A program made the position numbers and the translations under genes. Shown piece after piece: positions 18,847-49,724 of a stretch of 64,000 bases of DNA (its first letter is position 1; every line of letters begins with the position of its first letter). Location of the stretch: contig NZ_JYNX01000034.1 in NCBI RefSeq assembly GCF_001044255.1, forward strand, positions 119,104 to 183,103. The letters are read 5' to 3'. The notes under the pieces are model-generated. The model was given only the letters and a program-made list of their open reading frames with translations. It did not search any database and was not told where the DNA came from. This DNA is from Mycolicibacterium chubuense. Lineage in GTDB: Bacteria > Actinomycetota > Actinomycetes > Mycobacteriales > Mycobacteriaceae.

Positions 18847-18909
18847 CCGCGGAATAGCATTCCGGGCTGCGATTTCCGCCGGGCAGCGACCAGGAATGCG
18901 CTTCCGCGG
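18847..18909. repeat. 63-bp imperfect palindromic repeat, copy 1
   Basis: An intergenic element bounded by CCGCGG at both ends. The arms CCGCGGAATAGCATTCC and GGAATGCGCTTCCGCGG pair with a few mismatches. Its reverse complement matches 49662-49724 at 52 of 63 positions, with the outer 26 bases at one end identical and the centre diverged. It lies between lprE and the nuclease-helicase and could act as a terminator or as a mobile palindromic unit. Confidence 0.85.
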
Positions 18910-18935
18910 AGGACGAGGGCGTCGGACCCCTGCCT

Positions 18936-18941
18936 TACAGT
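18936..18941 (+). promoter_or_regulatory. -10 hexamer of a leaderless promoter (nuclease-helicase)
   Basis: TACAGT ends 6 nt before GTG 18948. Confidence 0.6.
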
Positions 18942-18947
18942 GGCGAC

Positions 18948-21900
18948 GTGTTCGTCATCGAGGGCCGCGTGGTCTACAGCGCCTCGGATCTCGCCGCGGC
19001 CGCGCGCTGCGAGTACGCGCTGCTACGGGCCTTCGACGTCAAGCTCGGCCGCGGGCCCGCGGTGTCCGGTGACGACGAATTGCTGGCTCGCACTTCGCAA
19101 CTCGGCGACCAGCACGAGCAGCGGCACCTCGACGCGCTGCGCCGCGACAGCGAGGTCACCGTCATCGGCCGTCCCGACTACACCCTCGCCGGCCTGACCG
19201 CGGCCGCCGACCACACGCTGCGCGCGATCGAGCGCAGGGCGCCGGTGATCTTCCAGGCCGCGATGTTCGACGGCCGGTTCGTCGGTTTCGCGGACTTCCT
19301 GCTGCTCGAGGATTCCGAGCAGGGGCCGCGCTACCGGCTCCGGGACACCAAGCTGGCCCGCTCGGTCAAGGTCGAGGCGCTGCTGCAGTTGGCGGCCTAC
19401 GTCGACACCCTCACCGCGGCCGGGGTGCCGGTCGCACCGGAGGTGGACCTGGTGCTCGGCGACGGCGCGACCGTCAGCTACCCCGTCGACGAGCTGCTGC
19501 CGGTGTACCGCCCCCGCCGCGCCGCGTTGCAACGCCTGCTCGACGACCACCTGGCCGGCGACGCGCCGGTGGCCTGGGAGGACGAGTCGGTGCGCGCCTG
19601 CTTCCGCTGCGCCGAATGCGAGCAGGAGGTCCGCGCCCGCGACGATCTGCTGCTTGTCGCCGGCATGCGGGTCAGTCAACGGGCCCGGCTGTTCGACGCG
19701 GGCATCACCACCGTGCGCGACCTCGCCGCCCACGAGGGCCCGGTCGCCGAACTCCCGGCCCGCACCGTCGGCGCCCTGACGGCGCAGGCCCGGCTGCAGA
19801 TCGCCGAGCGGCCCGACGGCAAACCGCCCTATCGGCTTGTCGATCCGCAACCGCTGATGGTGCTGCCCGACGCCGACAAGGGCGACCTGTTCTTCGACTT
19901 CGAGGGCGATCCGCTGTGGACCGCCGACGGCCACGAGTGGGGGCTGGAATACCTCTGGGGTGTGCTGACCGTCGCCGACGAGTTCTCCCCGCTGTGGGCG
20001 CACACCCGCGCCGAGGAACGCGCGGCGCTGGGCGCGTTCCTCGACCTGGTGCGCAAGCGGCGGCGGCGCTACCCCGGCATGCACATCTACCACTACGCGG
20101 CCTACGAGAAGAGCACGCTGCTGCGGTTGGCCGGCCGCTACGGCGTCGGGGAGCGCGACGTCGACGAGCTGCTGCGCGAGGGCGTTTTAGTCGACCTGTA
20201 TCCGTTGGTGCGCAAGAGCATTCGCGTCGGTACCGAGAACTACAGCATCAAGTCGCTCGAGCCGCTCTACATGGGCAACGAGCTGCGCGACGGCGAGGTC
20301 ACCACGGCCACCGCGTCGATCACCGAGTACGCCCGCTACTGCGAGCTGCGCGACGCGGGCCGCGCCGACGACGCCGCGACGGTGCTCAAGGAGATCGAGG
20401 AGTACAACCGCTACGACTGCCGGTCGACCCGCCGGCTGCGGGACTGGCTGGTGGCGCGCGCCATCGAGTGCGGGGTGCCACCGCGCGGACCGGTGCCGGT
20501 CGACGGCGCCAAGCCCGACGCGGTCCAGGTGGACGCCGTCGAGCGCCGGCTACTGAAGTTCGCCGGGGACGGCGTCCAGGCGCGCACGCCCGAGCAGACG
20601 GCGGTCGCGTTGATCGCCGCCGCGAAGGGCTTCCACAAACGTGAGGACAAACCGTTCTGGTGGGGGCACTTCGACCGGGTCAACAACCCGGTGGAGGAGT
20701 GGTCCGACAGCAGCGGCGTGTTCCTCGTCGACAGCCACGAGATCGCCGAGGACTGGCACCAGCCGCCGAAAGCCCGGAAACCGCAGCGCCGCCTGATCCT
20801 TCGCGGCGAGATCGCCAACGGCGACCTGGACCGCGACATGTACGCGCTCTACGACCCACCCGCCCCGGCGGGACTGGCCGACGACCCCGACCGCCGCGGC
20901 TACGGCACCGTGACGGTCGTCGACTGCGACAACGTCGAGGCGCCCACCGAGGTGACCGTCGTCGAGCGGCAACCCAAAGGCGGCGACGTCTTCACCCAGG
21001 TGCCGTTCGCGCTGACCCCGGGACCGCCGATCAGCACCAAGCCGCTGGCCGAGTCGATCGCCGCCGCCGCGCAGGAGGTCGCCGACGCGCTCCCCCGGCT
21101 CCGTCCGGGCGCGATGACCGACCTGCTGCTGCGGCGTGCGCCGCGCACTCTCAGCGGCGCCGCCCTGCCCGGCACCGGCGCCGTCGTCGCCGACATCACC
21201 GCGGCGCTGCTCGATCTCGACGCGTCGTACCTCGCGGTGCACGGCCCGCCGGGCACCGGCAAGACGTTCACCGCCGCGCAGGTCATCGCATCGCTGGTCG
21301 TGGAACACGGCTGGCGGGTCGGGGTGGTCGCGCAGGCGCACGCCGTCGTGGAGAACCTGTTCGCCGGCATCCTGCGGGCGGGTGTCGACGCCGATCGGGT
21401 GGGCAAGAAGAAGTCCGCGGGCGCACCATGGCGGGACATCGACGAGAAGGAATATCCGGCGTTCATCGCCGACTGCGAGGGCTGCGTGATCGGCGGTACC
21501 GCATGGGACTTCGCCAACGACCGTCGTGTTCCGGCCGCATCGCTGGACCTGCTCGTCGTCGAGGAGGCGGGCCAGTTCAGCCTCGCCAACACGATCGCGG
21601 TGGCGCGCGCGGCGCGCAACCTGCTGCTGCTCGGCGATCCGCAGCAGCTGCCGCAGGTCAGCCAGGGCACCCATCCCGAGCCGGTCGACGGGTCGGCGTT
21701 GGCCTGGCTGGTCGACGGTCACCACACATTGCCGGCCGAACGCGGCTACTTCCTGGACCGCTCCTACCGGATGCACCCCGACGTGTGCCGTGGAGTGTCC
21801 CGGCTGTCCTACGACAACCGGCTGCACTCCCATGTGGACGTCACCGCGGCCCGCCGGCTCGACGGCGTCGCGCCCGGGGTCCGCACCCTGGCCGTCGACC

Positions 21901-22364
21901 ATCAGGGCAACGCCACCGACAGCCCCGAGGAGGCCGCGGCCATCGTCGCCACGCTGCGGGAACTGCTCGGCACCCCGTGGACCGACGAGGACGGCACCCG
22001 ACCGCTCGGCCAGGGCGACGTGCTCGTCGTGACCCCCTACAACGCGCAGGTGGTGCTGATGCGCAGCCACCTCGACGCGGCGGGGTTCACCGACGTGGCG
22101 GTCGGCACGGTCGACAAGTTCCAGGGTCAGCAGGCGCCGGTGGTGTTCCTGTCGATGACCGCGTCCTCGATCGACGACGTGCCCCGCGGAATCGCGTTCC
22201 TGCTCAACAGGAACCGGTTGAACGTCGCGGTGAGCCGGGCGAAGTACCTGGCGGTGATCGTGCGGTCGGCCCAGCTGACGGACTACCTGCCCGGCACGCC
22301 CGACCGCCTGGTCGAGCTGGGCGCGTTCCTGTCGCTGAGCTCATGTGATACACCGGGCCGATGA
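18948..22364 (+). CDS. TM0106-family RecB-like nuclease / DEDD exonuclease / Dna2-like helicase fusion (Rv1251c-like)
   Basis: A 1138-residue three-part protein probably acting on DNA ends or flaps. Residues 1-230 form a Cas4/RecB-like PD-(D/E)xK nuclease with H56, D116 (GFAD), D133-x-K135 (RDTK) and Q147. Four cysteines (C21 plus C218, C221, C224 as CxxCxxC) have the Fe-S arrangement of Cas4, AddB and Dna2. Residues about 312-505 resemble RNase_H_2/DEDDy exonucleases (DFEGDP 317-322, Y486NRYD490). Residues about 745-1120 are an SF1 helicase of the UPF1/Dna2 group: GPPGTGKT (765-772), VVEEAGQF, GDPQQLP, DRSYRMHP, VDKFQGQQ, NVAVSRAK. Cellular role unproven. It overlaps the next gene by ATGA. 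Confidence 0.9.
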   Translation: MFVIEGRVVYSASDLAAAARCEYALLRAFDVKLGRGPAVSGDDELLARTSQLGDQHEQRHLDALRRDSEVTVIGRPDYTLAGLTAAADHTLRAIERRAPVIFQAAMFDGRFVGFADFLLLEDSEQGPRYRLRDTKLARSVKVEALLQLAAYVDTLTAAGVPVAPEVDLVLGDGATVSYPVDELLPVYRPRRAALQRLLDDHLAGDAPVAWEDESVRACFRCAECEQEVRARDDLLLVAGMRVSQRARLFDAGITTVRDLAAHEGPVAELPARTVGALTAQARLQIAERPDGKPPYRLVDPQPLMVLPDADKGDLFFDFEGDPLWTADGHEWGLEYLWGVLTVADEFSPLWAHTRAEERAALGAFLDLVRKRRRRYPGMHIYHYAAYEKSTLLRLAGRYGVGERDVDELLREGVLVDLYPLVRKSIRVGTENYSIKSLEPLYMGNELRDGEVTTATASITEYARYCELRDAGRADDAATVLKEIEEYNRYDCRSTRRLRDWLVARAIECGVPPRGPVPVDGAKPDAVQVDAVERRLLKFAGDGVQARTPEQTAVALIAAAKGFHKREDKPFWWGHFDRVNNPVEEWSDSSGVFLVDSHEIAEDWHQPPKARKPQRRLILRGEIANGDLDRDMYALYDPPAPAGLADDPDRRGYGTVTVVDCDNVEAPTEVTVVERQPKGGDVFTQVPFALTPGPPISTKPLAESIAAAAQEVADALPRLRPGAMTDLLLRRAPRTLSGAALPGTGAVVADITAALLDLDASYLAVHGPPGTGKTFTAAQVIASLVVEHGWRVGVVAQAHAVVENLFAGILRAGVDADRVGKKKSAGAPWRDIDEKEYPAFIADCEGCVIGGTAWDFANDRRVPAASLDLLVVEEAGQFSLANTIAVARAARNLLLLGDPQQLPQVSQGTHPEPVDGSALAWLVDGHHTLPAERGYFLDRSYRMHPDVCRGVSRLSYDNRLHSHVDVTAARRLDGVAPGVRTLAVDHQGNATDSPEEAAAIVATLRELLGTPWTDEDGTRPLGQGDVLVVTPYNAQVVLMRSHLDAAGFTDVAVGTVDKFQGQQAPVVFLSMTASSIDDVPRGIAFLLNRNRLNVAVSRAKYLAVIVRSAQLTDYLPGTPDRLVELGAFLSLSSCDTPGR

Positions 22365-23719
22365 CCGAAGCGCTGACCGGACGGCTCGCCGCGATCGTGG
22401 GCGCCTCGCAGGTGAGCACCGATCCCGACGTGCTCGGCGGCCGCAGCGTCGACTACACCGGCCGGTACCGGGGCCGCGCGGCCGTGCTGGTGCGGCCGGG
22501 GTCGGCCGAGGAGGTCGCGGCGGTGCTGACCGCGTGCCGCGACGCCGGGGTGAGCGTGACCGTGCAGGGCGGCCGGACGTCGCTGGTGGCGGGCACCGTG
22601 CCCGAGCACGACGACGTGCTGCTGTCGACCGAGCGGCTGCGCGGGATCGATGAGGTCGACACGGTGGAGCGCCGGGTGCACGTCGGCGCCGGGGTGACGC
22701 TGGCCGAGGTGCAGCGGGCCGCGACGGCGGCGGGACTGGTGTTCGGGGTGGACTTGGCGGCGCGCGACTCGGCCACGGTCGGCGGCATGGCGTCGACCAA
22801 CGCCGGCGGATTGCGCACCGTCTGCTACGGCAACATGGGCGAGCAGGTGCTCGGCCTCGACGTGGTGCTGCCCGACGGGTCGGTGGTGCACCGGCACAGC
22901 CAGGTGCGCAGCGACAACACCGGCTACGACCTGGCATCGCTGTTCGTCGGCGCCGAGGGCACGCTCGGGGTGATCACCGGGCTCGATCTGCGCCTGCACC
23001 CCACCCCGCGGCAGCGGGTGACCGCGATCTGCGGCTACGCCGATCTCGAAGCGCTGATCGCGACCGCCCGCGTGTTCCGCGACATGGACGGCATCGCGGC
23101 TCTGGAGCTCATCGACGCCCGGGCCAGCGCGCTGACCGCCGAGCACGCCGGCGTCGCCGCCCCGGTCGAGGGCGCCTGGCAGCTGCTGATCGAGCTGGCC
23201 GGGGAGACCGACCTGACCGACCGGCTCGCCGAGGCGCTGTCGGAGGCCGATCTGTGCGGAGAGCCCGCCGTGGGAATCGACGGTGCCGCCCAGCAGCGGC
23301 TGTGGCAGGTGCGCGAGGCGGTGGCCGACGTGCTGGGCGTCTACGGGCCCCCGCTGAAATTCGATGTGTCGCTGCCTCTTTCATCGATCAACGGGTTCGC
23401 GGCCGAGTCCGCCGGGCTGATCGCCGACCACGCCCCTGACGCCATCCCCGTGCTGTTCGGGCACGTCGGGGAGGGCAACCTGCACCTGAACATCGTGCGG
23501 TGCACACTGAGCGGCGACCGCGAGCACGCTCTCTACACCGCGATGATGGCGCTGATCGCCCGTCACGACGGCAACGTCAGCTCCGAACACGGGGTGGGCA
23601 CCCGCAAGCGGGACTACGTGTCGATGTCGCGCACCGACGCCGACATCGCGGCGATGCGGGCGGTCAAGGCGGCGTTCGACCCCACCGGCTACCTGAACCC
23701 CGCGGTGCTGTTCGGCTGA
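22361..23719 (+). CDS. FAD-linked oxidase, D-2-hydroxyacid (2-hydroxyglutarate/D-lactate) dehydrogenase type
   Basis: The 452-residue flavoprotein has the PCMH FAD domain (about 35-215) with TVQGGRTSLVAG (about 67-78), ATVGGMASTNAGGL (about 138-151) and SLFVGAEGTLG (about 190-200), and the FAD-oxidase C domain with FGHVGEGNLHLN (about 367-378) and SSEHGVGTRKRDY (about 407-419). It differs clearly from the GlcD-like gene at 10978 and is nearer to D-2-hydroxyglutarate dehydrogenases. ATG 22361 overlaps the nuclease-helicase stop (ATGA), so the pair is translationally coupled, a curious partnership of a DNA enzyme and a metabolic one. Confidence 0.88.
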   Translation: MTEALTGRLAAIVGASQVSTDPDVLGGRSVDYTGRYRGRAAVLVRPGSAEEVAAVLTACRDAGVSVTVQGGRTSLVAGTVPEHDDVLLSTERLRGIDEVDTVERRVHVGAGVTLAEVQRAATAAGLVFGVDLAARDSATVGGMASTNAGGLRTVCYGNMGEQVLGLDVVLPDGSVVHRHSQVRSDNTGYDLASLFVGAEGTLGVITGLDLRLHPTPRQRVTAICGYADLEALIATARVFRDMDGIAALELIDARASALTAEHAGVAAPVEGAWQLLIELAGETDLTDRLAEALSEADLCGEPAVGIDGAAQQRLWQVREAVADVLGVYGPPLKFDVSLPLSSINGFAAESAGLIADHAPDAIPVLFGHVGEGNLHLNIVRCTLSGDREHALYTAMMALIARHDGNVSSEHGVGTRKRDYVSMSRTDADIAAMRAVKAAFDPTGYLNPAVLFG

Positions 23720-23734
23720 CGCGGCGACGTGACG

Positions 23735-23740
23735 TAGCGT
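23735..23740 (+). promoter_or_regulatory. -10 hexamer of a leaderless promoter (flavoprotein gene)
   Basis: TAGCGT ends 7 nt before ATG 23748, which fixes that ATG over the upstream in-frame GTG 23739. Confidence 0.65.
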
Positions 23741-23747
23741 GGCGGCG

Positions 23748-25139
23748 ATGACCAGCATCGAGGCTGACTATCTCGTCATCGGCGCGGGCGCGATGGGTAT
23801 GGCGTTCGTCGACACGATGCTCACCGAGACCGGCTCGACGATCGTGCTCGTCGACGACAATCACCAGCCCGGGGGCCACTGGAACTGGGTGTATCCGTTC
23901 GTGCGGCTGCATCAGCCGTCCGCGTACTACGGCGTGAACTCGCGGGCGCTGGGCAACGAGGACTGGATCGACGAGGCCGGGCCGAACGCGGGCTTCTTCG
24001 AGCTGGCCACCGGACACGAGGTGTGTGCCTACTACGACCAGGTGATGCGCCACCAGCTGCTGCCCACCGGCCGACTGTCGTACTTTCCCTCGTCACACTA
24101 TCTGGGCGACAACAGGTTTCGGACCCTCGACGGCGCCGAACACACGGTGGCGGTGCGGCGCCGGGTGGTCGATGCGACGTACCTGCTGACGGTCGTGCAG
24201 TCGATGCGTTCGGCGCCGTTCTCGGTCGACGACGGCGTGGACGTCGTCACCCCCAACGACCTGCCGCGCCGGGCGGCGGGCCGTGAGCACTACACGATCG
24301 TCGGCGGCGGCAAGACCGGCATGGACTGCTGCCTGTGGCTGATGCGCTCCGGAGTCGGGCCCGAGAGACTGCGGTGGATCATGCCGCGTGACTCGTGGCT
24401 GCTCAACCGTGCCAACATCCAGCCCGGCGAACGGTTCGTCAAGACGTTGCGGGAGTCGATCGCCTCCCGGATGGCCGCGATCGCCGAGGCGACGTCGATC
24501 GACGACCTGTTCCTGCGACTCGAGGCCGACGGCACCGTCTTCCGGCTGGACCCGGACAGGACGCCGACGATGTACCACTGCGCCATCGTCTCCGCCGGGG
24601 AACTCGAGCAACTGCGTCTCATCCAGGACGTGGTGCGGCAGGGCCACCTCGAACGCGCCGAGCACGACCGCATCGTGCTGCGCGGCGGCGAACTGGAGGT
24701 GCCGGCGCCGTCGCTGTACGTGGACTGCACGACCCAGGGGCTGCCGCGACCCCCGTCGGTGCCGGTGTTCGACGGTGACCGGATCACGCTGCAGAGCGTG
24801 CGCGGATGCCAGCAGGTGTTCAGCTCGGCGTTCATCGCCCATGTCGAAGCCGGCTACGCCGACGACGCCACTCGCAACGACCTGTGCGCGCCGATCCCCC
24901 ACCCCGACGCGCCGGTCGACTGGCTGCGAATCCTGCTCTCCGACAACGAAGCCCAGGTGCGCTGGCTCAAGGACCCCGAGCTGATGGACTGGCTGAAGGC
25001 GTGCCGGCTCAATGTGCTGCGTGACCTGTTCCCCGACTTCACCGACAAGCCGCGGGTGCGTGACCGGGCGTTCGGGGCACTGACCTCGGCGCTGACGAAG
25101 ACCAACGCGCAGCTCGAAGCCCTGATGGAGCGCGGCTAA
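23748..25139 (+). CDS. FAD/NAD(P)-binding flavoprotein oxidoreductase
   Basis: The 463-residue protein has two dinucleotide-binding motifs: GAGAMGM near residue 11 at the N-terminus, with an acidic VDDN at the end of beta-2 and PGGHWNW after it, and [12 protein letters not shown] in the middle (about 183-194). The layout resembles flavin-containing monooxygenases and lysine/ornithine N-monooxygenases but lacks a clear FMO fingerprint. Substrate unknown. It stands alone with its own leaderless promoter. Its stop overlaps that of the convergent DHA2 pump (CTAA, 25136-25139). Confidence 0.8.
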
Positions 25140-26926
25140 GCGGATTCCGGGCCGCGCGAGTGCCGGCCGTAGGAGTTCGCCTCGCCGTCGGCGCCGGATC
25201 CGTTGCGCCCGTTGCGGGGCGCCGACTCGGCCAGCAGCTGGTCGAGGATGGTGCGCCACTCGTGGGTCGTCGTCTCGGCGTCCGGGCCGGCCGGCGGCTC
25301 GGGAGTGGCCCGGTTCAGGACGTCGGTGTCGGCCTCGGCGCTGGAATCAGTGCCGGAATCGGTGCCGCCCCAGTCGACGACGTACTCGACGTACTCGTCG
25401 TCGTCGGCGGCGAAGTCACCGTCATCGTCGACGCGAGCGTCCGGCTCGGCCTGCGGCGCGGCCGGGGTGACACGGCTGCCGACCATGCCGATCAGGAACA
25501 GCGCGGCCACCACACCGAACAACGCGATGAAGGCGGGCAGCAGCATCGCCTGCGACATCGCGGCCGCGAACGGGGCGTGCAGGAAGCCGGGCAGCTGCGC
25601 GACGGAGCCCTCGGACTGCGGAGCCGCGTCGGCCGCGCCGGGCATCTCCGCCGAGAGCCGGGACGCCATGAACGCGGCCATGCCGGCGCTGCCCAGCACC
25701 GAGCCGACCTGCCGCGTCGTGTTGTACACCCCGGATCCGGCGCCGGCGAGCTGCGGCGGCAGGTTGCGGGTGGCCGTGGCGGCCAACGGCGACCAGATGA
25801 ACGCCATCCCCACACCCATGGCGGTCAGCGGAAGTACCAACCGCCAGATCGGGGTCGTCGGCGTCATCTCCACCGACAGCCAGGTGAGCCCGATCGCCAT
25901 GACCGAGAACCCGAAGCCGATGACCGGGCGCGGGTGCGCGCGGTCGACGATCTTGCCGACCGCCGGGGCGAGCACCCCGGTCGCGACCGCCATCGGCGCG
26001 GTCAGCAGCGCCGCCCGCGTCGGGGTGAGCCCGCACACCGCCTGGGCGTAGAACATCAGCGGCAGGATCATCGACGTCGCGACGAACCCGATCGTCGCGA
26101 CACCGATGTTGGACATCGAGAAGTCGCGATCACCGAAGATCACCAGCGGGATGAGCGGCTCCCCGCGGTTGACCGACTGCCACACCACGAACGCCGCCAT
26201 CACCGCGACACCGATCGCCATCGTCGCCCAGATCCAGGGCGCCCAGTCGTGGGACTGGCCCTCCTGCAGCGCGAACACGATCAGGAACATGCCGACCCCG
26301 GAGAGCACGACACCCGGCAGGTCGAAGTGATGGCTCTGGGTCGGCAGCGAGGGCACCAGCCGCACGGCCAGCGCCAGCCCGATCAGGCCGACCGGCACGT
26401 TGACGAAGAAGATCCACTGCCACCCCAGGTGGTCGACCAGCACGCCGCCGGCCAGCGGCCCCACCAGCGTGGCCACCCCGGCCGTCGCCCCCCACACACT
26501 CATCGCGACACCGCGCCGCTCCGCCGGGAACGTCCTGGTGATCACCGAGAGGGTCTGCGGGGTGAGCAGCGCCGCGCCCACCCCCTGCAGCACGCGGGCC
26601 GCGACCAGCACGCCGATCGTGTCGGCCAGCCCGCACCACAGCGAGGCCAGCGTGAACACCGTGAGCCCGAGCAGGTAGACGTTCTTGGGCCCGTACCGGT
26701 CGCCGAGGCGCCCGGCGATCAGCAGCGGCACCGCATACGCCAGCAGGTAGGCGCTGGTCACCCAGATCACCGCGTCGTAGCCGACCCCGAGGTTGGTCAT
26801 GATCGCCGGGTTCGCGACCGCGACGATGGTCGCGTCGACCAGGATCATGAAGAAGCCGACGAGAAGCGCCCACAGGGCGTGCCAGGGGTTGACCCCCGGC
26901 GCGCGCGGCGTCACGGATTCGAGCAT
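25136..26926 (-). CDS. DHA2-family MFS drug efflux pump (Rv1250-like, EmrB type)
   Basis: Proton-antiport exporter with 14 predicted transmembrane segments over residues about 20-490. Visible motifs are [16 protein letters not shown] in TM1, [17 protein letters not shown] (MFS motif A) after TM2, and [20 protein letters not shown] (motif C-like) in TM5. Unusually there is a 100-residue cytosolic tail (about 497-596) rich in Asp, Glu, Gly and Ser. ATG 26926 is chosen over the upstream in-frame TTG 26938. Substrates are unknown; relatives export quinolones, dyes and lipids. The Bcr/CflA pump gene precedes it on the same strand. Confidence 0.9.
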
Positions 26927-26995
26927 GGTGGAAGACAACTGGGCATCAATCGACGAATGGCTACGGTTTCGGCCGACGCTACGGACCGGCGAGAT

Positions 26996-28270: not shown

Positions 28271-28419
28271 GCAATTGGTTAGCGCGGCTTCCCGATAAAT
28301 CCTTCCCCTCGCGGCGAACAGTGACCGCCGTCACGGTGCGGCACCCCGCGCGGACCGCCGTTCGTTGTCTGCATGTTTCCAGGGACTAGCCTGGAGGTTC
28401 GCACGACGAGAGGTCGCCG

Positions 28420-29163: not shown

Positions 29164-29182
29164 GCGCGCTCCGCAGACCGTT

Positions 29183-33186: not shown

Positions 33187-33189
33187 CCC

Positions 33190-37811: not shown

Positions 37812-37818
37812 CGGCCCG

Positions 37819-38397: not shown

Positions 38398-38398
38398 G

Positions 38399-39026: not shown

Positions 39027-39033
39027 GATCAGC

Positions 39034-39633: not shown

Positions 39634-39652
39634 CAGTCTTCAGTTCCTGACC
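39619..39652 (+). repeat. 17-bp tandem duplication spanning the stop codon
   Basis: Two adjacent copies (39619-39635 and 39636-39652) of a unit starting GTCTTCAGTTC match at 15 of 17 positions. The first copy holds the gene's stop codon and the second repeats it. Confidence 0.7.
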
Positions 39653-39669
39653 TTCCCGAAGTTGCACCG

Positions 39670-40092
39670 ATGACCACGAGCGGCCCCGAGCAACCCTACG
39701 ACGACGCCGGGTTGCCGCCGCCGGTGTATCCGGGTGCACCGCCCGGCTACGGCGCCGTGCCGTACCCGGCCTATCCGTCGTACTCGGACTATTCGTCGTA
39801 CCCGGCCTATCCGTCGTATCCGGGGTATCCGGCGCGGCCGCCGGGCACCAACGGCAAGGCGATCGCCGCGCTGGCGACGGCGCTGGGCGGTCTGATCTGC
39901 TGCGGGCTGCCCTCGATCGTGGGATTGGTGCTCGGCGTGATCGCGATGCGCGAGACCCGGCGCACCGGCCAGAAGGGCTTCGGGCTGGCCGTGGCCGCCG
40001 TGGTGATCAGCACGCTGCTGATCATCGTCGGCGTCCTCTATGTCGCGCTCACGACGGTGCTGTACGCCGGCAACTGGCAGTGGGCGCCCTAG
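39670..40092 (+). CDS. DUF4190 membrane protein, paralogue of the preceding gene
   Basis: The 140-residue protein has a short Pro/Tyr-rich N-terminus (about 1-56, with repeated AYPSY and YSSYPAY units) and a two-helix DUF4190 module (about 57-130; KAIAALATALGGLICCGLPS, then RETRRTGQKGFGLAVAA). It aligns with the C-terminal module of the 39034 gene, which argues for a tandem duplication followed by shortening of the disordered tail. Its stop shares CTAG (40089-40092) with the convergent CitE-like gene. Function unknown. Confidence 0.8.
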   Translation: MTTSGPEQPYDDAGLPPPVYPGAPPGYGAVPYPAYPSYSDYSSYPAYPSYPGYPARPPGTNGKAIAALATALGGLICCGLPSIVGLVLGVIAMRETRRTGQKGFGLAVAAVVISTLLIIVGVLYVALTTVLYAGNWQWAP

Positions 40093-41054: not shown

Positions 41055-41060
41055 ACTCTC

Positions 41061-41066
41061 TACTCT
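41061..41066 (+). promoter_or_regulatory. -10 hexamer of a leaderless promoter (PRC/MgtE-N/CBS gene)
   Basis: TACTCT ends 7 nt before ATG 41074 and sits within a few bases of the opposing CitE-like start. Confidence 0.65.
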
Positions 41067-41073
41067 GACAACC

Positions 41074-42369
41074 ATGGCGTCGGTCAACAGGGTCTATGCG
41101 GCCCGGCTCGCGGGAATGGTGGTGCTGGGTCCCGACGGCGAATCGATCGGCCGCGTGCGTGACGTGGTGATCAGTATCAGCCTGGTCCGGCAACAACCTC
41201 GTGTTCTCGGCCTGGTCATCGAATTGCTCACGCGCAAGCGAATTTTCGTGCCGATCCTGCGCGTGACGGCGATCGAGCCGGGGGCGGTCACACTGTCCAC
41301 CGGAAGTGTGTCGCTGCGCCGCTTCTCCCAGCGCCCCGGCGAGGTGCTGGTGCTGGGCCAGGTACTCGAAACCCGGGTGCGCGTCGACGATCCCGACCTG
41401 ACCGAGCTGGCCGGGATCGACGTCGTGGTGGTGGATCTGGGCATCGAGCAGACCCGCACGCGCGACTGGGTGGTCACCAGGGTCGCCGTCCGTCCACAGC
41501 GGCGGCTGGGCCGGCGCAGCAACGTCCACACCGTGGACTGGCAGCACGTCCAAGGCCTGACGCCCTCGGGGCTGGCGATGCCCGACCAGGGCGTGGCTCA
41601 GCTGCTCGAGCAGTTCGAGGGTCAGCGCCCCATCGAGGTGGCCGACGCGATCCGCGAACTGCCCGCCAAGCGGCGCAACGAAGTGGTCAACGCGCTCGAC
41701 GACGAACGACTCGCCGACGTGCTGCAGGAGCTCCCCGAAGACGAACAGGTCGCGCTGCTGCGGCAGCTCAAGACCGAGCGCGCCGCCGACGTGCTCGAGG
41801 CGATGGACCCCGACGACGCCGCCGACCTGCTGGGAACGATGACCCCGGCCGACGCCGAGCAGCTTCTGCGCCGGATGGACCCGGAGGACTCCGAGGACGT
41901 CCGGCGCCTGCTCAGCCACTCACCGAACACCGCCGGCGGTCTGATGACCTCGGAGCCGGTGGTGCTCGCACCCGACACCACGGTTGCCGAAGCCCTTGCG
42001 CGCGTGCGTGATCCGGATCTGACGCCGGCGCTGGCGTCGCTGGTGTTCGTGGTCCGGCCGCCGACGGCGACACCGACGGGACGCTATCTGGGCTGCGTGC
42101 ACCTGCAGCGGCTGCTGCGCGAACCCCCGGCCGCGCTCGTCAGCGGCATGGTCGACAAGGACCTGCCCAGCCTGCGGCCGGAGGATTCGCTGGGCGCGCT
42201 GAGCCGATACTTCGCCGCCTACAACCTGGTGTGCGGCCCGGTCGTCGACGAGGAGAGCCACCTGCTCGGCGCGGTCTCCGTCGACGACGTCCTCGACCAC
42301 CTGCTGCCCGACGACTGGCGGGAACGCGAAGCCGAACCCGAGATCGTGACCGCCGAGAGGACGACATGA
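41074..42369 (+). CDS. PRC-barrel / MgtE-N / CBS protein lacking the transport domain (Rv1232c-like)
   Basis: The 431-residue soluble protein has two N-terminal PRC-barrel-like repeats (about 5-145; GPDGESIGRVRDVVI), then an MgtE N-terminal superhelix (about 165-280; RRNEVVNALDDERLADVLQELPEDEQ) and a CBS pair (about 283-405; NTAGGLMTSEPVVLAPD). The MgtE magnesium-channel membrane domain is absent. In MgtE these parts sense cytosolic Mg2+ and gate the pore. The stop overlaps the start of the DUF1003 membrane protein (ATGA), which may be its membrane partner. Confidence 0.88.
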   Translation: MASVNRVYAARLAGMVVLGPDGESIGRVRDVVISISLVRQQPRVLGLVIELLTRKRIFVPILRVTAIEPGAVTLSTGSVSLRRFSQRPGEVLVLGQVLETRVRVDDPDLTELAGIDVVVVDLGIEQTRTRDWVVTRVAVRPQRRLGRRSNVHTVDWQHVQGLTPSGLAMPDQGVAQLLEQFEGQRPIEVADAIRELPAKRRNEVVNALDDERLADVLQELPEDEQVALLRQLKTERAADVLEAMDPDDAADLLGTMTPADAEQLLRRMDPEDSEDVRRLLSHSPNTAGGLMTSEPVVLAPDTTVAEALARVRDPDLTPALASLVFVVRPPTATPTGRYLGCVHLQRLLREPPAALVSGMVDKDLPSLRPEDSLGALSRYFAAYNLVCGPVVDEESHLLGAVSVDDVLDHLLPDDWREREAEPEIVTAERTT

Positions 42370-42908
42370 GCGACCTGTCAGCTCGGCAGCGCCTCGACAC
42401 GCCCAAGAGCTCCCGCTCGTTCGCGCCGCGGCTGGACGTCGAGGCGGTCGGCCGGGTCAGCGAGCGGATCGCGCGCTTCCTCGGCACCGGGCGCTACCTG
42501 GCCATCCAGACGATCTTCGTCATCGTCTGGGTGTTCCTGAACATCGGCGCCTTCGCCTGGCAGTGGGACCCCTATCCGTTCATCCTGCTGAACCTGGCGT
42601 TCTCCACCCAGGCGGCCTACGCCGCACCGCTGATCCTGTTGGCGCAGAACCGGCAGGAGAACCGGGACCGGGTGTCGCTCGAAGAGGACCGCCGGCGCGC
42701 CGAGCAGACCAAGGCCGACACCGAGTACCTGGCCCGCGAACTCGCGGCGCTGCGGCTCGCGGTCGGCGAGGTGGCCACCCGTGACTACCTGCGCCGCGAG
42801 CTCGAGGAGATCCGCGAGATGATCTTTGAGCTCCGTCCCGACGATGCCGCGGGCGACGGCGAATCGAGCAAACCCGACGCTGAGCGGCGGTCCCGGAAAT
42901 CCGGATGA
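42366..42908 (+). CDS. DUF1003 membrane protein (Rv1231c-like)
   Basis: The 180-residue protein has an N-terminal cytosolic part (1-42), two transmembrane helices (about 46-67 and 71-92; LAIQTIFVIVWVFLNIGAFA, then ILLNLAFSTQAAYAAPLILLAQN) typical of DUF1003, then a long charged coiled coil (about 93-155, RENRDRVSLEEDRRRAEQ). Function unknown. ATGA coupling to the MgtE-N/CBS protein suggests a stoichiometric complex at the membrane, possibly related to Mg2+ homeostasis. Confidence 0.85.
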   Translation: MSDLSARQRLDTPKSSRSFAPRLDVEAVGRVSERIARFLGTGRYLAIQTIFVIVWVFLNIGAFAWQWDPYPFILLNLAFSTQAAYAAPLILLAQNRQENRDRVSLEEDRRRAEQTKADTEYLARELAALRLAVGEVATRDYLRRELEEIREMIFELRPDDAAGDGESSKPDAERRSRKSG

Positions 42909-42965
42909 GACAGCTGTGGCCAATGCTGTTACACGGTCGTAGCCGAATAGGTATGGTGACGGGGT

Positions 42966-42983
42966 TCACAGGCGATCTCACAG
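42966..42983 (+). promoter_or_regulatory. Direct repeat TCACAG-N6-TCACAG, possible MtrA site
   Basis: Two TCACAG hexamers (42966-42971 and 42978-42983) lie just upstream of the cell-wall hydrolase gene. Mycobacterial MtrA is reported to bind loose direct repeats resembling GTCACAGCG near cell-wall genes. The match is partial. Confidence 0.3.
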
Positions 42984-42996
42984 CTAGGACGGTTGA

Positions 42997-44313
42997 GTGC
43001 ACATAGGGGGAGGAGCGGCCCTCGGAGCAGCGAGGAGTCGTGCCGGACGCATCGTCCGGATGCCGGCTTTCGGCGTTGCCGCAGTGTTGACCCCCCTGGT
43101 GCTCGCCGGCGCCGTCGGCGCCTCCGCGCCGTCGACCAACGCCCCGACCCGCGATGCGGCGGTGATGCCGCTGGCGGCCGTTGCGCCATCGCCCGGCGAA
43201 TCCGGCGTGTCGGTGGTGGCGGTGGCCAAGACCCCGACCCCGATGCGCATCGCCGCGGCCACGGTGTCTGCTCCCCCACCCGCGGTCGTCGTGAATTCGC
43301 CTGGCACGCTGCGTATCCCGTCGATGGCACTGGCGGCCTACCGGAACGCCGAAACAAAGATGGCCTCGGCCGCGCCCGGCTGCGGCGTGAGCTGGAATCT
43401 GCTGGCCGGCATCGGCCGCATCGAGTCGATGCACGCCAACGGCGGCGCCACCGATGCGCGGGGCACCGCGGTGCGGCCGATCTACGGCCCCAGCCTCGAC
43501 GGCACCCTGCCCGGTAACGAGGTCATCGTGCAGAGCCGCAACGCCGATCGCGTCGTGTACGCCAGGGCGCTGGGACCCATGCAGTTCCTGCCCGGCACCT
43601 GGTCGCGGTACGCCGCCGACGGGGACGGCGACGGCAAAGCCGACGTGCAGAACGTCTTCGACGCGTCGCTGGCCGCCGCCCGATACCTGTGCAGCGGCGG
43701 CCTGAACCTGCGCAGCCAGACCGATGTCCTGAGCGCGATTCTGCGCTACAACAACTCGATGGCCTACGCCCGCAACGTGCTGGCCTGGGCCGCGTCGTAC
43801 GCCACCGGCGTGGTGCCCGTCGACCTGCCGCCGATCACCGGTGAGGTGCCCGCCCTCGGGGACAGCCACCTCGACCGACCCGAAGGGCTCGGGCCCGGCC
43901 TGCCGCTCAACGCCGCCGGCCTGCCCGCCAACGATCCGCTGGCCCTGCTCCAACTCGGGCAGCGCACCGACGTCGCCAGCCTGATCAGCACCAACGTGCC
44001 CGGCTTCGCGCCCGGGCAGTCACTCGGCCCGCTGCCCGGTCCCGCGCCGGCCCCGCAGGCCGCGCCGCAACCCGTGGCGCCCCCGCCGCCGGCCTGGGTG
44101 CCGCCGTGGGTGACGCCCCCGCCGGCCCAGCAGCAGCCCGAGTGCGCGGTGTTCTGCATCACCAACACCCCTGCTCCCGCCGCGGCGCCCGTTCTCCCGG
44201 CTCCCGCCGCCCCACCGGTCGCGCCGTGGGCGCCGCCCATGCCGGCCGACCCGGTGGCCCCCGGCCCCGTACTGCCTCCCGCGCTGGGTCCGGCGCCCGG
44301 CCCGGCCGCCTGA
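42997..44313 (+). CDS. Secreted lytic transglycosylase-like protein (Rv1230c-like)
   Basis: Peptidoglycan-acting exported protein of 438 residues. The N-terminus has a hydrophobic signal/anchor (about 22-44) and an Ala/Pro-rich linker. The SLT/MltB-like catalytic domain spans about 108-270: CGVSWNLLAGIGRIES with the catalytic glutamate E143, ALGPMQFLPGTWSRYAADGDGDGKADVQN, and LRYNNSMAYARNVLAWA. The C-terminal 150 residues are Pro/Ala-rich with a CAVFC pair and probably span the wall. GTG 42997 is the start. Confidence 0.88.
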   Translation: MHIGGGAALGAARSRAGRIVRMPAFGVAAVLTPLVLAGAVGASAPSTNAPTRDAAVMPLAAVAPSPGESGVSVVAVAKTPTPMRIAAATVSAPPPAVVVNSPGTLRIPSMALAAYRNAETKMASAAPGCGVSWNLLAGIGRIESMHANGGATDARGTAVRPIYGPSLDGTLPGNEVIVQSRNADRVVYARALGPMQFLPGTWSRYAADGDGDGKADVQNVFDASLAAARYLCSGGLNLRSQTDVLSAILRYNNSMAYARNVLAWAASYATGVVPVDLPPITGEVPALGDSHLDRPEGLGPGLPLNAAGLPANDPLALLQLGQRTDVASLISTNVPGFAPGQSLGPLPGPAPAPQAAPQPVAPPPPAWVPPWVTPPPAQQQPECAVFCITNTPAPAAAPVLPAPAAPPVAPWAPPMPADPVAPGPVLPPALGPAPGPAA

Positions 44314-44364
44314 GCTCTCGGCCGCCGCCGGAGGACCGTCGACTGCGGCCTACACTCGCGGGTG

Positions 44365-45507
44365 ATGCCTGCGAATACTGCTGACCTGACCGCGGCTGTG
44401 CGCGCGTCGCTGACCAAGGTGATCGACCCCGAACTGCGGCGCCCCATCACCGAGGTCGGCATGGTCAAGAACGTCACCGTCGACGACGACGGATCCGTGC
44501 ACGTCGAGATCTACCTGACCACCTCGGCGTGCCCGAAGAAGACCGAGATCTCCGAGCGCGTCACCCGGGCCGCCAGCGACGTGCCCGGCACCGGCGCGGT
44601 GCGGGTCACGCTCGACGTGATGAACGACGAACAGCGCGCCGAACTTCGCACGCTGCTACGCGGCGACTCGCGCGAACCGGTGATCCCGTTCGCCCAGCCC
44701 GGCTCGCTGACCCGCGTGTACGCGGTGGCCTCCGGCAAGGGCGGGGTCGGCAAGTCCAGCGTCACGGTGAACCTGGCCGCCGCGATGGCCGCCCGCGGCC
44801 TCTCGGTGGGCCTGCTCGACGCCGACATCTACGGCCACTCGGTGCCCCGCATGATGGGCACCACCGACCGGCCCACCCAGGTCGATTCGATGATCCTGCC
44901 GCCGGTCGCCCACGACGTGCGGGTGATCTCGATCGCGATGTTCACCCAGGGCAACACCCCGGTGGTGTGGCGCGGCCCGATGCTGCACCGCGCGCTGCAA
45001 CAGTTCCTCGCCGACGTGTACTGGGGCGACCTCGACGTGCTGTTGCTGGACCTGCCGCCGGGCACCGGCGACATCGCGATCTCGGTGGCGCAGCTGATCC
45101 CCGGCGCGGAGATCCTGGTGGTCACCACTCCCCAGCTCGCGGCGGCCGAGGTCGCCGAGCGGGCGGGTGCAATCGCGCTGCAGACCCGTCAGCGCATCGC
45201 CGGCGTCGTCGAGAACATGTCCGGGCTGCTGATGCCGGACGGGTCGGTGATGCAGCTGTTCGGCGAGGGCGGTGGCCGCCAGGTCGCCGAGAGCCTGTCG
45301 CGCTCCGTCGGCGCCGACGTTCCTCTGCTGGGCCAGGTGCCGCTGGATCCGGCGCTGGTGGCCGCCGGGGACACCGGGGTGCCGCTGGTGCTCAGCGCCC
45401 CCGACTCGCCGGCAGGTGTCGAACTGCGCAAGGTCGCGGACTCGCTGTCCAGCCGCAAACGCGGGCTGGCCGGCATGTCGCTGGGCCTGGACCCCGCCGG
45501 CCGCTAG
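44365..45507 (+). CDS. mrp: Mrp/NBP35-family Fe-S cluster carrier ATPase (Rv1229c)
   Basis: Cytosolic P-loop ATPase that carries and delivers Fe-S clusters. From ATG 44365 the protein has 380 residues: an N-terminal MIP18/DUF59 domain (about 5-95) and the ParA/MinD-like domain with GKGGVGKS (124-131), a switch DADIYGHSVPRM and LLLDLPPGTGD. The CxxC normally found near the C-terminus of Mrp proteins is not visible: the region reads VENMSGLLMPDG where CxxC would be, as in actinobacterial members. TACACT at 44351-44356 is at leaderless distance from ATG 44365 or GTG 44362. Confidence 0.92.
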   Translation: MPANTADLTAAVRASLTKVIDPELRRPITEVGMVKNVTVDDDGSVHVEIYLTTSACPKKTEISERVTRAASDVPGTGAVRVTLDVMNDEQRAELRTLLRGDSREPVIPFAQPGSLTRVYAVASGKGGVGKSSVTVNLAAAMAARGLSVGLLDADIYGHSVPRMMGTTDRPTQVDSMILPPVAHDVRVISIAMFTQGNTPVVWRGPMLHRALQQFLADVYWGDLDVLLLDLPPGTGDIAISVAQLIPGAEILVVTTPQLAAAEVAERAGAIALQTRQRIAGVVENMSGLLMPDGSVMQLFGEGGGRQVAESLSRSVGADVPLLGQVPLDPALVAAGDTGVPLVLSAPDSPAGVELRKVADSLSSRKRGLAGMSLGLDPAGR

Positions 45508-45509
45508 CG

Positions 45510-45911
45510 CTAGGTGGCGTCCGGGTCGAATCGCGTCGGCCCCGAGTTGTCGACCGGACCGGGCCCCGACTGCGGTTTCTCCGGTGGCGTCTGCGGCTTC
45601 TCCGGCGTGCTCGGCGTGTCGAAGCGGCCGGTGAATATCGAGTCGTCCCCGTCGAGCAGATGCTTGGTCAGCGCCGCGCGCGGCGTCATGCCCCGCAGCT
45701 TCTGCAGCTCCGACAGTGGTTCGCGTAGATCGTCGAATTCCGGGCCCAGATCCTGGCGCAGCTGGCTGGTGGCACCGGAGATGTAGTCGCGCGCCTGGCG
45801 CACCGCACCGGAGGTCCAGCGGATCGCGCCGGGCAGCCGCTCAGGTCCGAGGATCACCAGCCCGGCGATCACCAGGACCAGCATCTCGCCCCAGCCGACG
45901 TTGGCGAACAT
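45510..45911 (-). CDS. tatB: Sec-independent protein translocase TatB
   Basis: Part of the twin-arginine export receptor TatBC. The 133-residue protein has the short N-terminal membrane anchor (about 5-22, with the conserved G and LGPERLP hinge at 21-27), an amphipathic helix (about 28-60) and a Pro-rich tail (about 100-133). It lies 3 nt downstream of htrA, the usual mycobacterial order htrA-tatB, so envelope-stress regulation through SigE is likely. It is convergent with mrp. Confidence 0.95.
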
Positions 45912-45914
45912 GGC

Positions 45915-47510
<1,596 letters not shown>

Positions 47511-47909
47511 CTACCGACGCTTGCGACGGGCGCGCGGCGCGCCGTCGGCCCACTGCGCCGAGTCGGCCGGTTCCGGGTGCTCGATCGGTGCGTGCTGCGG
47601 GATCTGGGACAACAGCCCCAGAAGTGAACTCGGCATCGCCACCGGACAGGCGTCACGCAGCACCTCGCGCGCTTGACGCTGGGCGTCGACCTCGGTGGCG
47701 CACTGCGGACACATCGACATGTGGTGCGCGGCGCGCAGGTGCGCGCTCATCCGCAACTCACCGTCGACGAACGCGGCGACGGCCTCGGTGGACAGATGCT
47801 CGGTGGAACCGAACTGCCGCGGCCCGACAGGGGCGTCACTCTGCGAGGCGAACTGGGTGGGGAGCCAGGAGAAAGCGCGACGGAACGCGTGTCCGGGATC
47901 GAACACCAC
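47511..47909 (-). CDS. rseA: Anti-sigma-E factor RseA
   Basis: Cytosolic zinc-associated anti-sigma factor that sequesters SigE. The 132-residue protein matches RseA/Rv1222 (FRRAFSWLPTQFASQSDAPVG), with the ZAS motif in HLRAAHHMSMCPQC (about 56-69; H61/H62, C66, C69) and a basic C-terminus. In M. tuberculosis it is phosphorylated by PknB and degraded by ClpCP under stress; the sequence alone shows the domain. The C-terminal tail is shorter than in M. tuberculosis. It starts at GTG 47909 behind AGGAG, 79 nt after the sigE stop. Confidence 0.95.
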   Translation of the reverse strand: MVFDPGHAFRRAFSWLPTQFASQSDAPVGPRQFGSTEHLSTEAVAAFVDGELRMSAHLRAAHHMSMCPQCATEVDAQRQAREVLRDACPVAMPSSLLGLLSQIPQHAPIEHPEPADSAQWADGAPRARRKRR

Positions 47910-47988
47910 CTGACTCCTCTCCGGTCATGTCGTATCGACGGGTCTTCCTCGAATGTAGCGCGGCATGCTGTGAACCCGCCGACGAACG

Positions 47989-48783
47989 TCAGGCCGATCT
48001 GGCCGCGTCGCGCACGTCGGTGTCGGAGTGCCGGGCCAGGTAGTCGCGCAGCGCTTGGCGGCCACGGTGGATGCGGCTGCGCACGGTGCCCAGCTTGACG
48101 CCCAGCGTCGCGCCGATCTCCTCGTAGGAGAGCCCCTCGATGTCGCACAGCACCACGGCGGCGCGGAACTCCGGGGGAAGGGAGTCGAGCGCGGCCTGCA
48201 GGTCGGGGCCCAGCCGGGAGTCGTGGTAGATCTGCTCCGGATTGGGCTCGTCGGCGGGCACCCGCTCGTAGTCCTCGGGCAGCGCTTCCATCCGGATGCG
48301 GCCGCGGCGGCGGACCATGTCGAGGAACAGGTTGGTGGTGATGCGGTGCAGCCAGCCCTCGAACGTGCCGGGCTGGTAGTTCTGCACGGAGCGGAACACC
48401 CGGATGAAGGTCTCCTGCGTCAGGTCCTCGGCGTCGTGCTGATTACCCGAGAGGCGGTAGGCCAGCCGGTACACCCGGTCGGCGTGCTGACGCACCAACT
48501 CGTCCCAGCTGGGCATCGCGGCCTGATCACCGGTGGCGTCGAAGACCGCGGTGCCGGTGAGCTCGTCGGTCGTCTCCACCCATTCGGCATCGGTGAACTG
48601 CTCGAGGTGTGCCATCGAAACAGGAGCGGCGGTAGGGCCGGTCACAGTGGTGGTCGTCGGATCCTCCATGTCGTGCGAGTCGCGGTCGTCGAGAGACCGC
48701 TCGATGGAGTCAACACGGCGCAGTGACGCTTTCTTCCCGCCGTCGGGCAGTCCGATCTGGTCGCGGTGCGCGCCGTCTGTCAT
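47989..48783 (-). CDS. sigE: ECF RNA polymerase sigma factor SigE
   Basis: Envelope- and heat-stress sigma factor, equal to Rv1221. The 264-residue protein has a variable N-terminus (1-65) and near-identical sigma regions: region 2 from about 93 ([33 protein letters not shown]) and region 4 from about 195 ([42 protein letters not shown]). ATG 48783 is taken, with GGGAGA upstream; mycobacterial sigE genes are known to use alternative starts, so shorter forms are possible. It is divergent from the O-methyltransferase, with 180 bp of shared regulatory DNA, as at the M. tuberculosis locus. Confidence 0.96.
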
Positions 48784-48950
48784 GCGATCACGTTCTCCCG
48801 TGCTGGTGTGCCAGGCATATGAGCAAACTGAACATTTCCTGAGAATGAGTGCTACCCAATTTCGACCTGCGGAAACGGTGCGGGTCGGGGCCGCGGCGGG
48901 CGAATTCCGGGGACGGGCGTGTCGACGTCCCGGCGTCGCCGCCGACGCTC

Positions 48951-48956
48951 TACGCT
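48951..48956 (+). promoter_or_regulatory. -10 hexamer of a leaderless promoter (O-methyltransferase)
   Basis: TACGCT ends 7 nt before ATG 48964. Confidence 0.65.
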
Positions 48957-48963
48957 CGCGGGC

Positions 48964-49644
48964 ATGGCGAGCACCGACGAGCCCGCAGGCGGCGCCGGCG
49001 ATTCTGGATCCCGGCCCAGCCCGGCCGAGGCGATCGTCCGTCACGCCGAGCACTCGATCTCCGAGGACGCGATCGTCGCCGCCGCGCGGGAACGCGCCGT
49101 CGACATCGGCGCGGGCGCGGTGACCCCGGCCGTCGGCGCCCTCCTGTGCGTTCTCGCGAAGCTGACCAGCGCCAAGGCGGTGGTCGAGGTCGGCACCGGG
49201 GCGGGTGTCAGCGGTTTGTGGCTGCTCTCGGGGATGCGCGAAGACGGCGTGCTCACCACGATCGACGTCGAGCCCGAACACCAGCGCATCGCCAAGCAGG
49301 CGTTCACCGAAGCCGGCGTCGGGCCGGGGCGGACCCGGCTGATCGGCGGGCGTGCGCAGGAGGTGCTCACCCGGCTCGCCGACGAGTCCTACGACCTGGT
49401 GTTCATCGACGCCGATCCGGCCGACCAGCCGCAGTTCGTCGTCGAGGGCGTGCGCCTGCTGCGGCCGGGCGGTGTCATCGTCGTGCACCGCGCCGCGCTG
49501 GGCGGCCGGGCCGGCGACGCCACGGCCAACGACGCCGAAGTCGCTGCCGTGCGGGAGGCCGCGCGGCTGATCGCCGAGGACGAGCGGCTGACCCCGGTGC
49601 TGATCCCCCTGGGCGACGGCCTGCTCGCCGCCGCCCGCGACTGA
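48964..49644 (+). CDS. SAM-dependent O-methyltransferase (Rv1220c-like)
   Basis: The 226-residue class I methyltransferase is of the CCoAOMT/type 3 group. Visible: [31 protein letters not shown] (motif I VEVGTGAG, about 75-82), TTIDVEPEH (acidic E at the end of beta-2), [11 protein letters not shown] (metal and SAM site) and [12 protein letters not shown]. The acceptor is unknown. It is divergent from sigE. ATG 48964 is fixed by the leaderless promoter. A 63-bp palindromic repeat follows the stop by 17 nt. Confidence 0.92.
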
Positions 49645-49661
49645 CCCCCTCTTCCCCTTTA

Positions 49662-49724
49662 CCGCGGAAGCGCATTCCTGGTCGCTGATCCGGCCTTTTC
49701 GCAACCCGGAACGCTATTCCGCGG
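49662..49724. repeat. 63-bp imperfect palindromic repeat, copy 2
   Basis: Bounded by CCGCGG at both ends, like copy 1 (18847-18909), to which it is related in reverse complement at 52 of 63 positions. The first 26 bases are identical; differences cluster in the centre (positions 27-37) with single changes at 43 and 51. The arms CCGCGGAAGCGCATTCC and GGAACGCTATTCCGCGG can pair. It lies between the O-methyltransferase gene and the promoter of the TetR-ABC operon. Confidence 0.85.

Follow-up and report, generated by a model that had tools for sequence, protein, structure and literature searches.

The stretch of Mycolicibacterium chubuense DNA analysed here (the window; 64,000 nucleotides of contig NZ_JYNX01000034.1) carries two copies of a 63-bp palindrome belonging to a dispersed repeat family, and the arms of this palindrome also bracket a nuclease gene on another contig of the same genome (Table 1). 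The two copies had been described in an original prediction, made from the letters alone, as reverse complements of equal length. This description holds, i.e., both are 63 bp long and agree at 52 of 63 positions, compared with 40/63 for the best of 200,000 random 63-bp pairs drawn from the window. The sequence confirms CCGCGG at both ends of each copy, and the alignment confirms an identical 26-bp end beside a diverged centre. All four strands fold as hairpins, as had been expected, with z values of −3.1 to −4.6 and at most 1 of 200 shuffles folding as well as either copy strand. The stem of copy 1 contains a two-base mismatch, with TA (18855-18856) opposite GC (18900-18901), and in copy 2 GC (49670-49671) stands opposite TA (49715-49716). 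Both copies are intergenic between same-direction genes of the plus strand: copy 1 begins 16 nt past the stop at 18830, with the next gene from 18948, and copy 2 begins 17 nt past the stop at 49644, with the next gene from 49751.

Table 1. Features discussed in the text. Positions are those of the window unless a contig of the source genome (G000) is named.
Feature	Position	Strand	Remarks
Palindrome copy 1, 63 bp	18847..18909	+	arms 18847-18863 and 18893-18909
Palindrome copy 2, 63 bp	49662..49724	-	inverted relative to copy 1
Gene-bearing unit	G000:C16:26751-27737	.	about 987 bp, one gene between two palindrome arms
Cognate nuclease gene	G000:C16:26845-27711	.	289-residue protein
Gene upstream of copy 1, open reading frame of 196 residues	18240..18830	+	lipoprotein-like, by inspection
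Gene downstream of copy 1, open reading frame of 1138 residues	18948..22364	+	nuclease/helicase-like, by inspection; outside the repeat
Gene upstream of copy 2, open reading frame of 241 residues	48919..49644	+	methyltransferase-like, by inspection
Gene downstream of copy 2, open reading frame of 226 residues	49751..50431	+	TetR-like, by inspection
Third palindrome, other family	62077..62125	.	by eye, of the family of repeats around nuclease paralogue L096 (G000:C60)

A search of the source genome (5.95 Mb in 96 contigs) with the 63-base query, in which 40 of 55 candidates were scored, returned 34 matches, which correspond to 26 places (18 full-length and 8 partial) after the strands and two nested matches were merged. 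The 18 full copies were also made into a covariance model, which recovered all of them and an additional site, C28:15615, at E < 1e-5 (150 of 5005 candidates scored), and the arm pattern CCGCGGAANNGCRTTCC occurs at 41 sites in G000, compared with 0 for its reversed control. One of these 41 sites is located at 22184, inside a gene of the window, and may be due to chance. Rather than being limited to the window pair or to the same gene families, the repeat thus occurs at 26 places in varied contexts, and its original interpretation as a dispersed, structure-conserved element of the repetitive extragenic palindrome (REP) or miniature inverted-repeat transposable element (MITE) type is borne out by many, mostly intergenic copies. 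By simple coding-frame criteria, a stop codon stands no more than 30 nt from 14 of the 18 full copies (the position of copy L004 was taken from its neighbour genes, as the frame script had chosen an antisense frame), 7/18 lie between convergent genes, and a single copy, L018, lies in a coding frame. This copy (L018:1501-1563; G000:C33:89245) forms an in-frame stretch of 21 codons within the linker between the two domains of a protein that is CaiB-like by inspection. The stem position noted above carries TA on one arm and GC on the other, i.e., a two-base mismatch, in 13/18 copies, TA on both arms in 4/18, and GC on both in 1/18. A second dispersed form was seen as solo single-end copies, GAGAAGCCATGG...CCGCGG (L080:1460-1513 and L081:1498-1551), which correspond to one of the two ends of the gene-bearing unit in Table 1.

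The original prediction had also proposed looking for a nearby REP-type transposase, and none was found: the profile of Y1/HuH transposases (PF01797) has 0 matches in the 96 contigs of G000, compared with matches in 5 of 14 control genomes. An IS30-like insertion sequence (IS) is, however, associated with the family. Five IS ends were found (L026-L030; G000:C62, C33, C14 and C19), four of which abut half-palindromes of the 63-bp family, the fifth being a contig end; the apparent other end of this contig-end copy abuts a variant arm. Its reading frame of 398 residues is IS30-like by inspection. The own ends of the IS differ from the palindrome, which is interrupted by it, so the palindrome is the target of this IS. 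An ordinary REP system with its REP-associated tyrosine transposase (RAYT), or an IS-derived MITE whose known transposase was left unspotted, is thereby very improbable; the REP-like architecture and distribution and the IS30-like element abutting the copies would suit it, but the ends of the IS are not those of the palindrome that it interrupts, and the missing PF01797 match largely refutes a Y1 enzyme. A DDE transposase with CCGCGGAA..GCATTCC ends would fit such an origin, and the search did not extend to further transposase families with such ends.

On contig C16, two inverted arms (at C16:26751 and C16:27721, about 970 bp apart) enclose a sole gene, and the extended ends of this unit give an inverted-repeat match score of 40, compared with at most 13.5 in shuffles. 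The unit is present in single copy in G000, where the next homologue is 48% identical, and the same gene with CGGAAC(T/G)GCATTCC arms is found in G213, G353, G087 and G272, the gene of G272 containing an internal stop. The encoded protein is predicted to combine an AbiEi-like N-terminal part with a Vsr/DUF559-type PD-(D/E)XK nuclease part, based on its Pfam matches (MTES_1575 restriction endonuclease, E = 2.5e-6; AbiEi_1, 3e-4; DUF559, 1e-3) and its PADLOC match (AbiEi, E = 8e-12). Among 25 family members, MTES_1575 is matched by 22 and DUF559 by 14 at E ≤ 0.01. Across 91 homologues, six residues (E181, D214, E225, D227, H231 and D241) show at least 95% conservation and presumably constitute the Vsr-like PD-(D/E)XK centre. 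A search of PDB with a single sequence gave no credible match, and the profile of 25 members gave two weak ones, 3hrl (endonuclease-like, E = 0.0014) and 3r3p (the Vsr-like "Mobile intron protein", E = 0.012). Homologues at E ≤ 1e-60 occur in 380 of 392 sampled genomes. Nuclease homologues were also found in 2 of 50,697 phage records and in 7 of 72,556 plasmid records, all of them below 60% identity; no nuclease relative was confirmed in viral contigs, and the palindrome was not found in plasmid records. Four palindrome-carrying loci of M. chlorophenolicum (L075-L078) contain no nuclease homologue within their 8 kb.

G000 encodes 12 homologous nuclease genes, and most of these bear repeats of their own. 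The flanks were scored by the better of the inverted and direct local alignments between 410-base flanks, both being used because the inverted score alone (at least 16 in 6/12 paralogues) missed direct pairs; the threshold of 18 was chosen after the control results were seen. Matching repeats were found on both sides of 9/12 paralogues, and the repeat sequence differs from gene to gene. L086, L091 and L094 fall under the threshold, although two palindromes can be seen by eye at one flank of L091. An ungapped hairpin exceeding all 12 shuffles is present on at least one side of 9/12 paralogues and on both sides of four (L087, L090, L092 and L096; the second of L092 is a different hairpin), and no hairpin above shuffles was obtained on either side of L085, L086 and L095. 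Nine flank palindromes, joined as one query against G000 with 40 of 106 candidates scored, recovered their own flanks and, for six of them (L087, L088, L090, L091, L095 and L096), dispersed copies elsewhere. The third palindrome of the window, which resembles the L096 repeats, lies 5 nt from the end of a minus-strand gene starting at 62131.

Most other sampled homologues in the genus also stand between matching repeats, which differ in sequence from the 63-bp family. The threshold is reached by 24/28 best homologues (29 loci, one contig being too short) and by 31/35 further homologues, which were taken as roughly every third row of the homologue list before their flanks were seen. Three of five loci chosen from arm-rich genomes and 6/9 same-genus loci from a class-wide search are likewise flanked. 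Outside the genus 6/17 loci (20 loci, three too short) are flanked, a rate which may be too low, as several matches cover only part of the gene and the flanks were measured from inside. As controls, 1 of 249 sliding pseudo-genes reaches the threshold, this match (26900) representing two transporter paralogues by inspection, and 0 of 48 predicted window genes do. Individual loci showed further arrangements: L182, outside the genus, has a 56-bp palindrome on both gene sides; L163 places a nuclease homologue inside a long composite inverted repeat with a score of 285.5; and in L167 and L184, outside the genus, the nuclease genes are flanked not by single palindromes but by inverted tandem arrays, each built of short repeats. 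AbiEi antitoxins bind inverted repeats, and the AbiEi-like match of the cognate protein would therefore suit an operator or self-marking function, in which the AbiEi-like part binds the palindromes for autoregulation, with the dispersed copies as decoys, or the palindromes shield DNA from the nuclease in a restriction- or addiction-like manner. This function is nevertheless improbable, given that the repeats lie on both gene sides and elsewhere, mostly at gene 3' ends rather than at promoters.

The abundance of the arms was compared with the presence of the gene across genomes, the arm-site counts being taken by reading match listings. The pattern CGGAANNGCRTTCC was searched over 396 genomes, 362 of which have a control-like 0-4 sites, while some reach 121, 108, 100, 86, 55 (G000) and 31. 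In a search for the cognate protein over 392 genomes, six proteins were scored per genome, and a match of at least 420 bits was taken as a close homologue. Raised arm counts co-occur with the close cognate gene: at least 5 arm sites are present in 13/15 genomes with such a homologue and in 21/377 others (p = 1.3e-13, a guide only). After the gene's own arms are subtracted, 13/15 still have at least 5 sites, and 11/15 have at least 8 sites, compared with 10/377.

The nuclease gene adjoins manB in 15/15 genomes, with a NUDIX-like neighbour also detected in 13; given this shared locus, the cognate gene is vertically inherited at one place in these genomes. At G179:C34 (L131), manB lies on the opposite side of the nuclease gene, i.e., the unit appears inverted, as if flipped between its inverted ends. 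The arms at these 15 genes are CGGAATAGC(A/G)TTCC on both sides in ten and on one side in L135, and CGCGAAATATCATTCC in four. The 16-mer CGCGAAATATCATTCC is present in 10/392 genomes (G179, 26 sites; G185, 19; G142, 17; G099, 13; G027, 11; G082, 8; G160, 6; G140, 5; G229, 3; G218, 2), and sites beyond the two gene flanks number 17 in G185, 15 in G142, 9 in G027 and 3 in G140, the four variant-arm genomes, in which the gene arms by themselves guarantee that the 16-mer is present. At least 3 further sites thus occur in 4/4 variant-arm genomes compared with 5/388 others (p = 1e-7), and within the 15 genomes in 4/4 compared with 3/11 (p = 0.026), both values being guides only. The within-15 test is weaker than the all-genome test, so lineage explains part of the co-variation, and the match in arm sequence between gene and dispersed copies within the 15 genomes is only suggestive.

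The fixed position of the gene bears on a homing-type mechanism, in which the nuclease would cut unoccupied gene-end sites and the palindrome, or gene plus palindromes, would be copied in by double-strand-break repair, the palindrome marking or destroying the cut site instead of being the cut substrate itself. The weak profile matches to 3r3p and 3hrl and the concentration of full copies behind stop codons would be consistent with such a mechanism. However, homing genes copy themselves, whereas here the palindromes are dispersed and the gene stays at one locus, and neither a common flank tag nor any other flanking sequence common to the sites was seen by eye beside the 25 listed loci of the 63-bp family; the mechanism is accordingly rated as unlikely.

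Turnover of the copies was assessed at orthologous sites. The flanks of 12 copies were joined, the first nine of which were searched in three relatives, giving 27 site comparisons, of which 21 were resolved (18 plus three more, of which two relied solely on the right flank). No full palindrome is present at 6/21 sites (gap of at most 22 nt), one of which keeps ATTCCGCGG, a possible remnant, and another of which (L008 in G019) also lacks part of the flank. The same family, an arm variant or the single-end form occupies 10/21 sites. At the other 5/21, a palindrome classed by eye as a different family occupies the same spot (L002 in G342 and G019, L004 in G019 and G160, and L006 in G342); four of these five replacements are strong hairpins, equalled by no more than 1 of 200 shuffles, and the fifth, L002 in G019, is weak (23/200). 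These presences, absences and replacements mean that copies are gained and lost between relatives, and the gene ends are ground common to several families.

This turnover also concerns the alternative that the palindromes are bidirectional terminators or stabilisers of mRNA 3' ends under selection, with a secondary link to the nuclease. A shared terminator had been offered in the original prediction, and the placement of the copies supports that part of the idea: 14/18 lie close behind stop codons, 7/18 separate convergent genes, the RNA hairpins are strong, and a palindrome of another family, so classed by eye, takes the same spot at 5/21 sites as if any hairpin would serve. The expected terminator signals did not appear, however. 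No T-run follows copy 1, where AGGACGAG comes next by eye, and none follows copy 2, with 0 terminator-like sites at 49600-49800; no Rfam covariance model matched, either in the window at gathering score or in three loci at E ≤ 0.5. Furthermore, 6/21 orthologous sites do without a full palindrome, and this alternative does not predict the gene-specific flank repeats around nuclease genes, nor does a terminator role account for a nuclease gene bracketed by the arms of the 63-bp palindrome. Selection for termination or stabilisation is therefore a quite unlikely primary explanation, with a secondary role of the palindromes as terminators being possible.

Taken together, the observations lean modestly toward a reading in which the 63-bp palindromes are non-autonomous mobile repeats of the C16 nuclease, which spreads them in trans. 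The nuclease would recognise its own palindrome, whether in duplex form or folded into a hairpin by extrusion or on the lagging strand, and would cut there, perhaps on the hairpin form. Repair or strand transfer could then spread copies in trans, mainly just behind stop codons, with the nuclease gene itself staying at its own locus. Inserted hairpins may persist as harmless or useful at mRNA 3' ends. This logic would parallel the role proposed for TnpA-REP (RAYT) in the spread of REPs, with an unrelated enzyme. Vsr acts at mismatches, and the stem mismatches in 13/18 copies are intriguing in this respect; other genomes have paired arms, e.g., CT with CT in G087, so the model does not rest on the stem mismatch.

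Several points weigh against this spread by the nuclease. What was observed is an association, from which cutting, movement and nuclease-driven spread are inferred. All Pfam matches of the cognate protein are below the curated cut-offs, and covariation among the 18 G000 copies is not above that of shuffles. L089, L092 and L093 have no copies beyond their flanks among the matches listed, and only 18/31 flanked genes in the genus have a repeat with self-complementarity of at least 14 (a figure without shuffle control), the rest being arm-like pairs. With respect to the arm counts, every unsubtracted count includes the gene's own flanks, and relatedness among the genomes makes the p-values look stronger than the evidence is. 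No homologue of at least 420 bits is among the six scored per genome in two arm-rich genomes, G345 (121 arm sites) and G385 (24), for which loss of the partner, an unscored partner or another driver is possible; G028, G037, G054 and G246 likewise have 9-16 arm sites without such a homologue. Conversely, G374 and G140 have the gene yet only 3 and 1 arm sites, G140 having 5 of the variant arm, and G179 has its 26 CGCGAAATATCATTCC sites though its same-locus gene bears the other arm, showing that the matching is not one to one. Finally, no clean empty site with target duplication was found; the relatives are about 10-20% diverged and their intergenic DNA differs, and none of the 21 resolved comparisons was close enough to read a target-site duplication.

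A nuclease partner of the Vsr/DUF559 type had not been foreseen in the original prediction. The matching repeats, often palindromes, that bracket many related nuclease genes in mycobacteria suggest that a type of small mobile repeat system has gone unrecognised. By analogy, the system may be regarded, again with a slight preference, as a REPtron-like partnership that relies on an enzyme of unrelated kind, a REPtron being the arrangement of a TnpA-REP (RAYT) gene with its REPs. A broader proposal is finely balanced and tips only just in favour: the Actinobacteria may hold a large, unrecognised palindrome-spreading class, with at least a dozen AbiEi-Vsr-type paralogues in a mycobacterial genome, all of them domesticated enzymes that would recognise a 50-65-bp palindrome of their own and seed it behind genes, and with rival palindrome families replacing one another at the same gene ends. 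If true, the REP/RAYT lifestyle would have been invented twice independently, here with a restriction-type nuclease in place of a HuH transposase, and a very common mycobacterial gene family would gain a function. The many apparent enzyme-repeat pairs in one cell would make recognition, cutting and spread directly testable and would offer a natural set of specificity pairs.

Among known systems, the Vsr, DUF559 and MTES_1575 nucleases resemble the cognate protein in profile matches and in the conserved E..D..E.DG..H..D residues, but they differ in having no tie to dispersed palindromes in those parts of the literature that were searched. A link of DUF559, MTES_1575 or AbiEi-type nucleases to palindromic repeats is not described in the accessible portions of the open-access literature searched; no open-access paper was found to combine DUF559 with palindrome and transposition, or with inverted repeat and mycobacteria; and repeats do not feature in the titles or opening abstract text of the DUF559 papers found in it. 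The accessible part of PMC3733652 contains no occurrence of Mycobacter, DUF559 or Vsr, and that of PMC12907096 links VsrA of Caulobacter to cytosine methylation. With MITEs and IS elements, the family shares short inverted-repeat ends, and the 63-bp palindrome resembles what joining the two arms of the ~987-bp unit would give. However, G000 has a single gene-bearing unit, whose locus is conserved across 15 genomes; no classical transposase lies inside it, and no target duplication was seen. REPs are known as targets of IS3, IS110, IS4, IS256 and IS5 family elements, according to the portion of PMC1525189 available, and interruption of the 63-bp palindrome by the IS30-like element is similar to this, except that IS30 does not figure in that list of five families.

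The closest comparison is with REPtrons, in which, as described in the available part of PMC8266576, an enzyme gene at a fixed place is surrounded by its cognate palindromes and accompanied by dispersed copies whose number tracks the gene, part of the REP copies carry stem mismatches, and the mechanism of spread is unsolved even for RAYTs. The present family likewise consists of dispersed extragenic palindromes (18 full copies; 41 arm sites compared with 0 in the control), its one-locus gene is bracketed by the same palindromes and its arm abundance tracks the gene (with the exceptions G345, G385, G374 and G140), and part of its copies carry a mismatch within the stem. In contrast, the enzyme is a predicted PD-(D/E)XK nuclease with an AbiEi-like N-terminus instead of a HuH/Y1 transposase, no GTAG/CTAC tag occurs within the two window copies, the palindromes, at 63 bp, exceed REPs in length, and the host belongs to the Actinobacteria. 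Thus, the system is not classed as a REPtron, as two tested hallmarks (the Y1 enzyme and GTAG) fail, and it is the anatomy in the genome that the two have in common.

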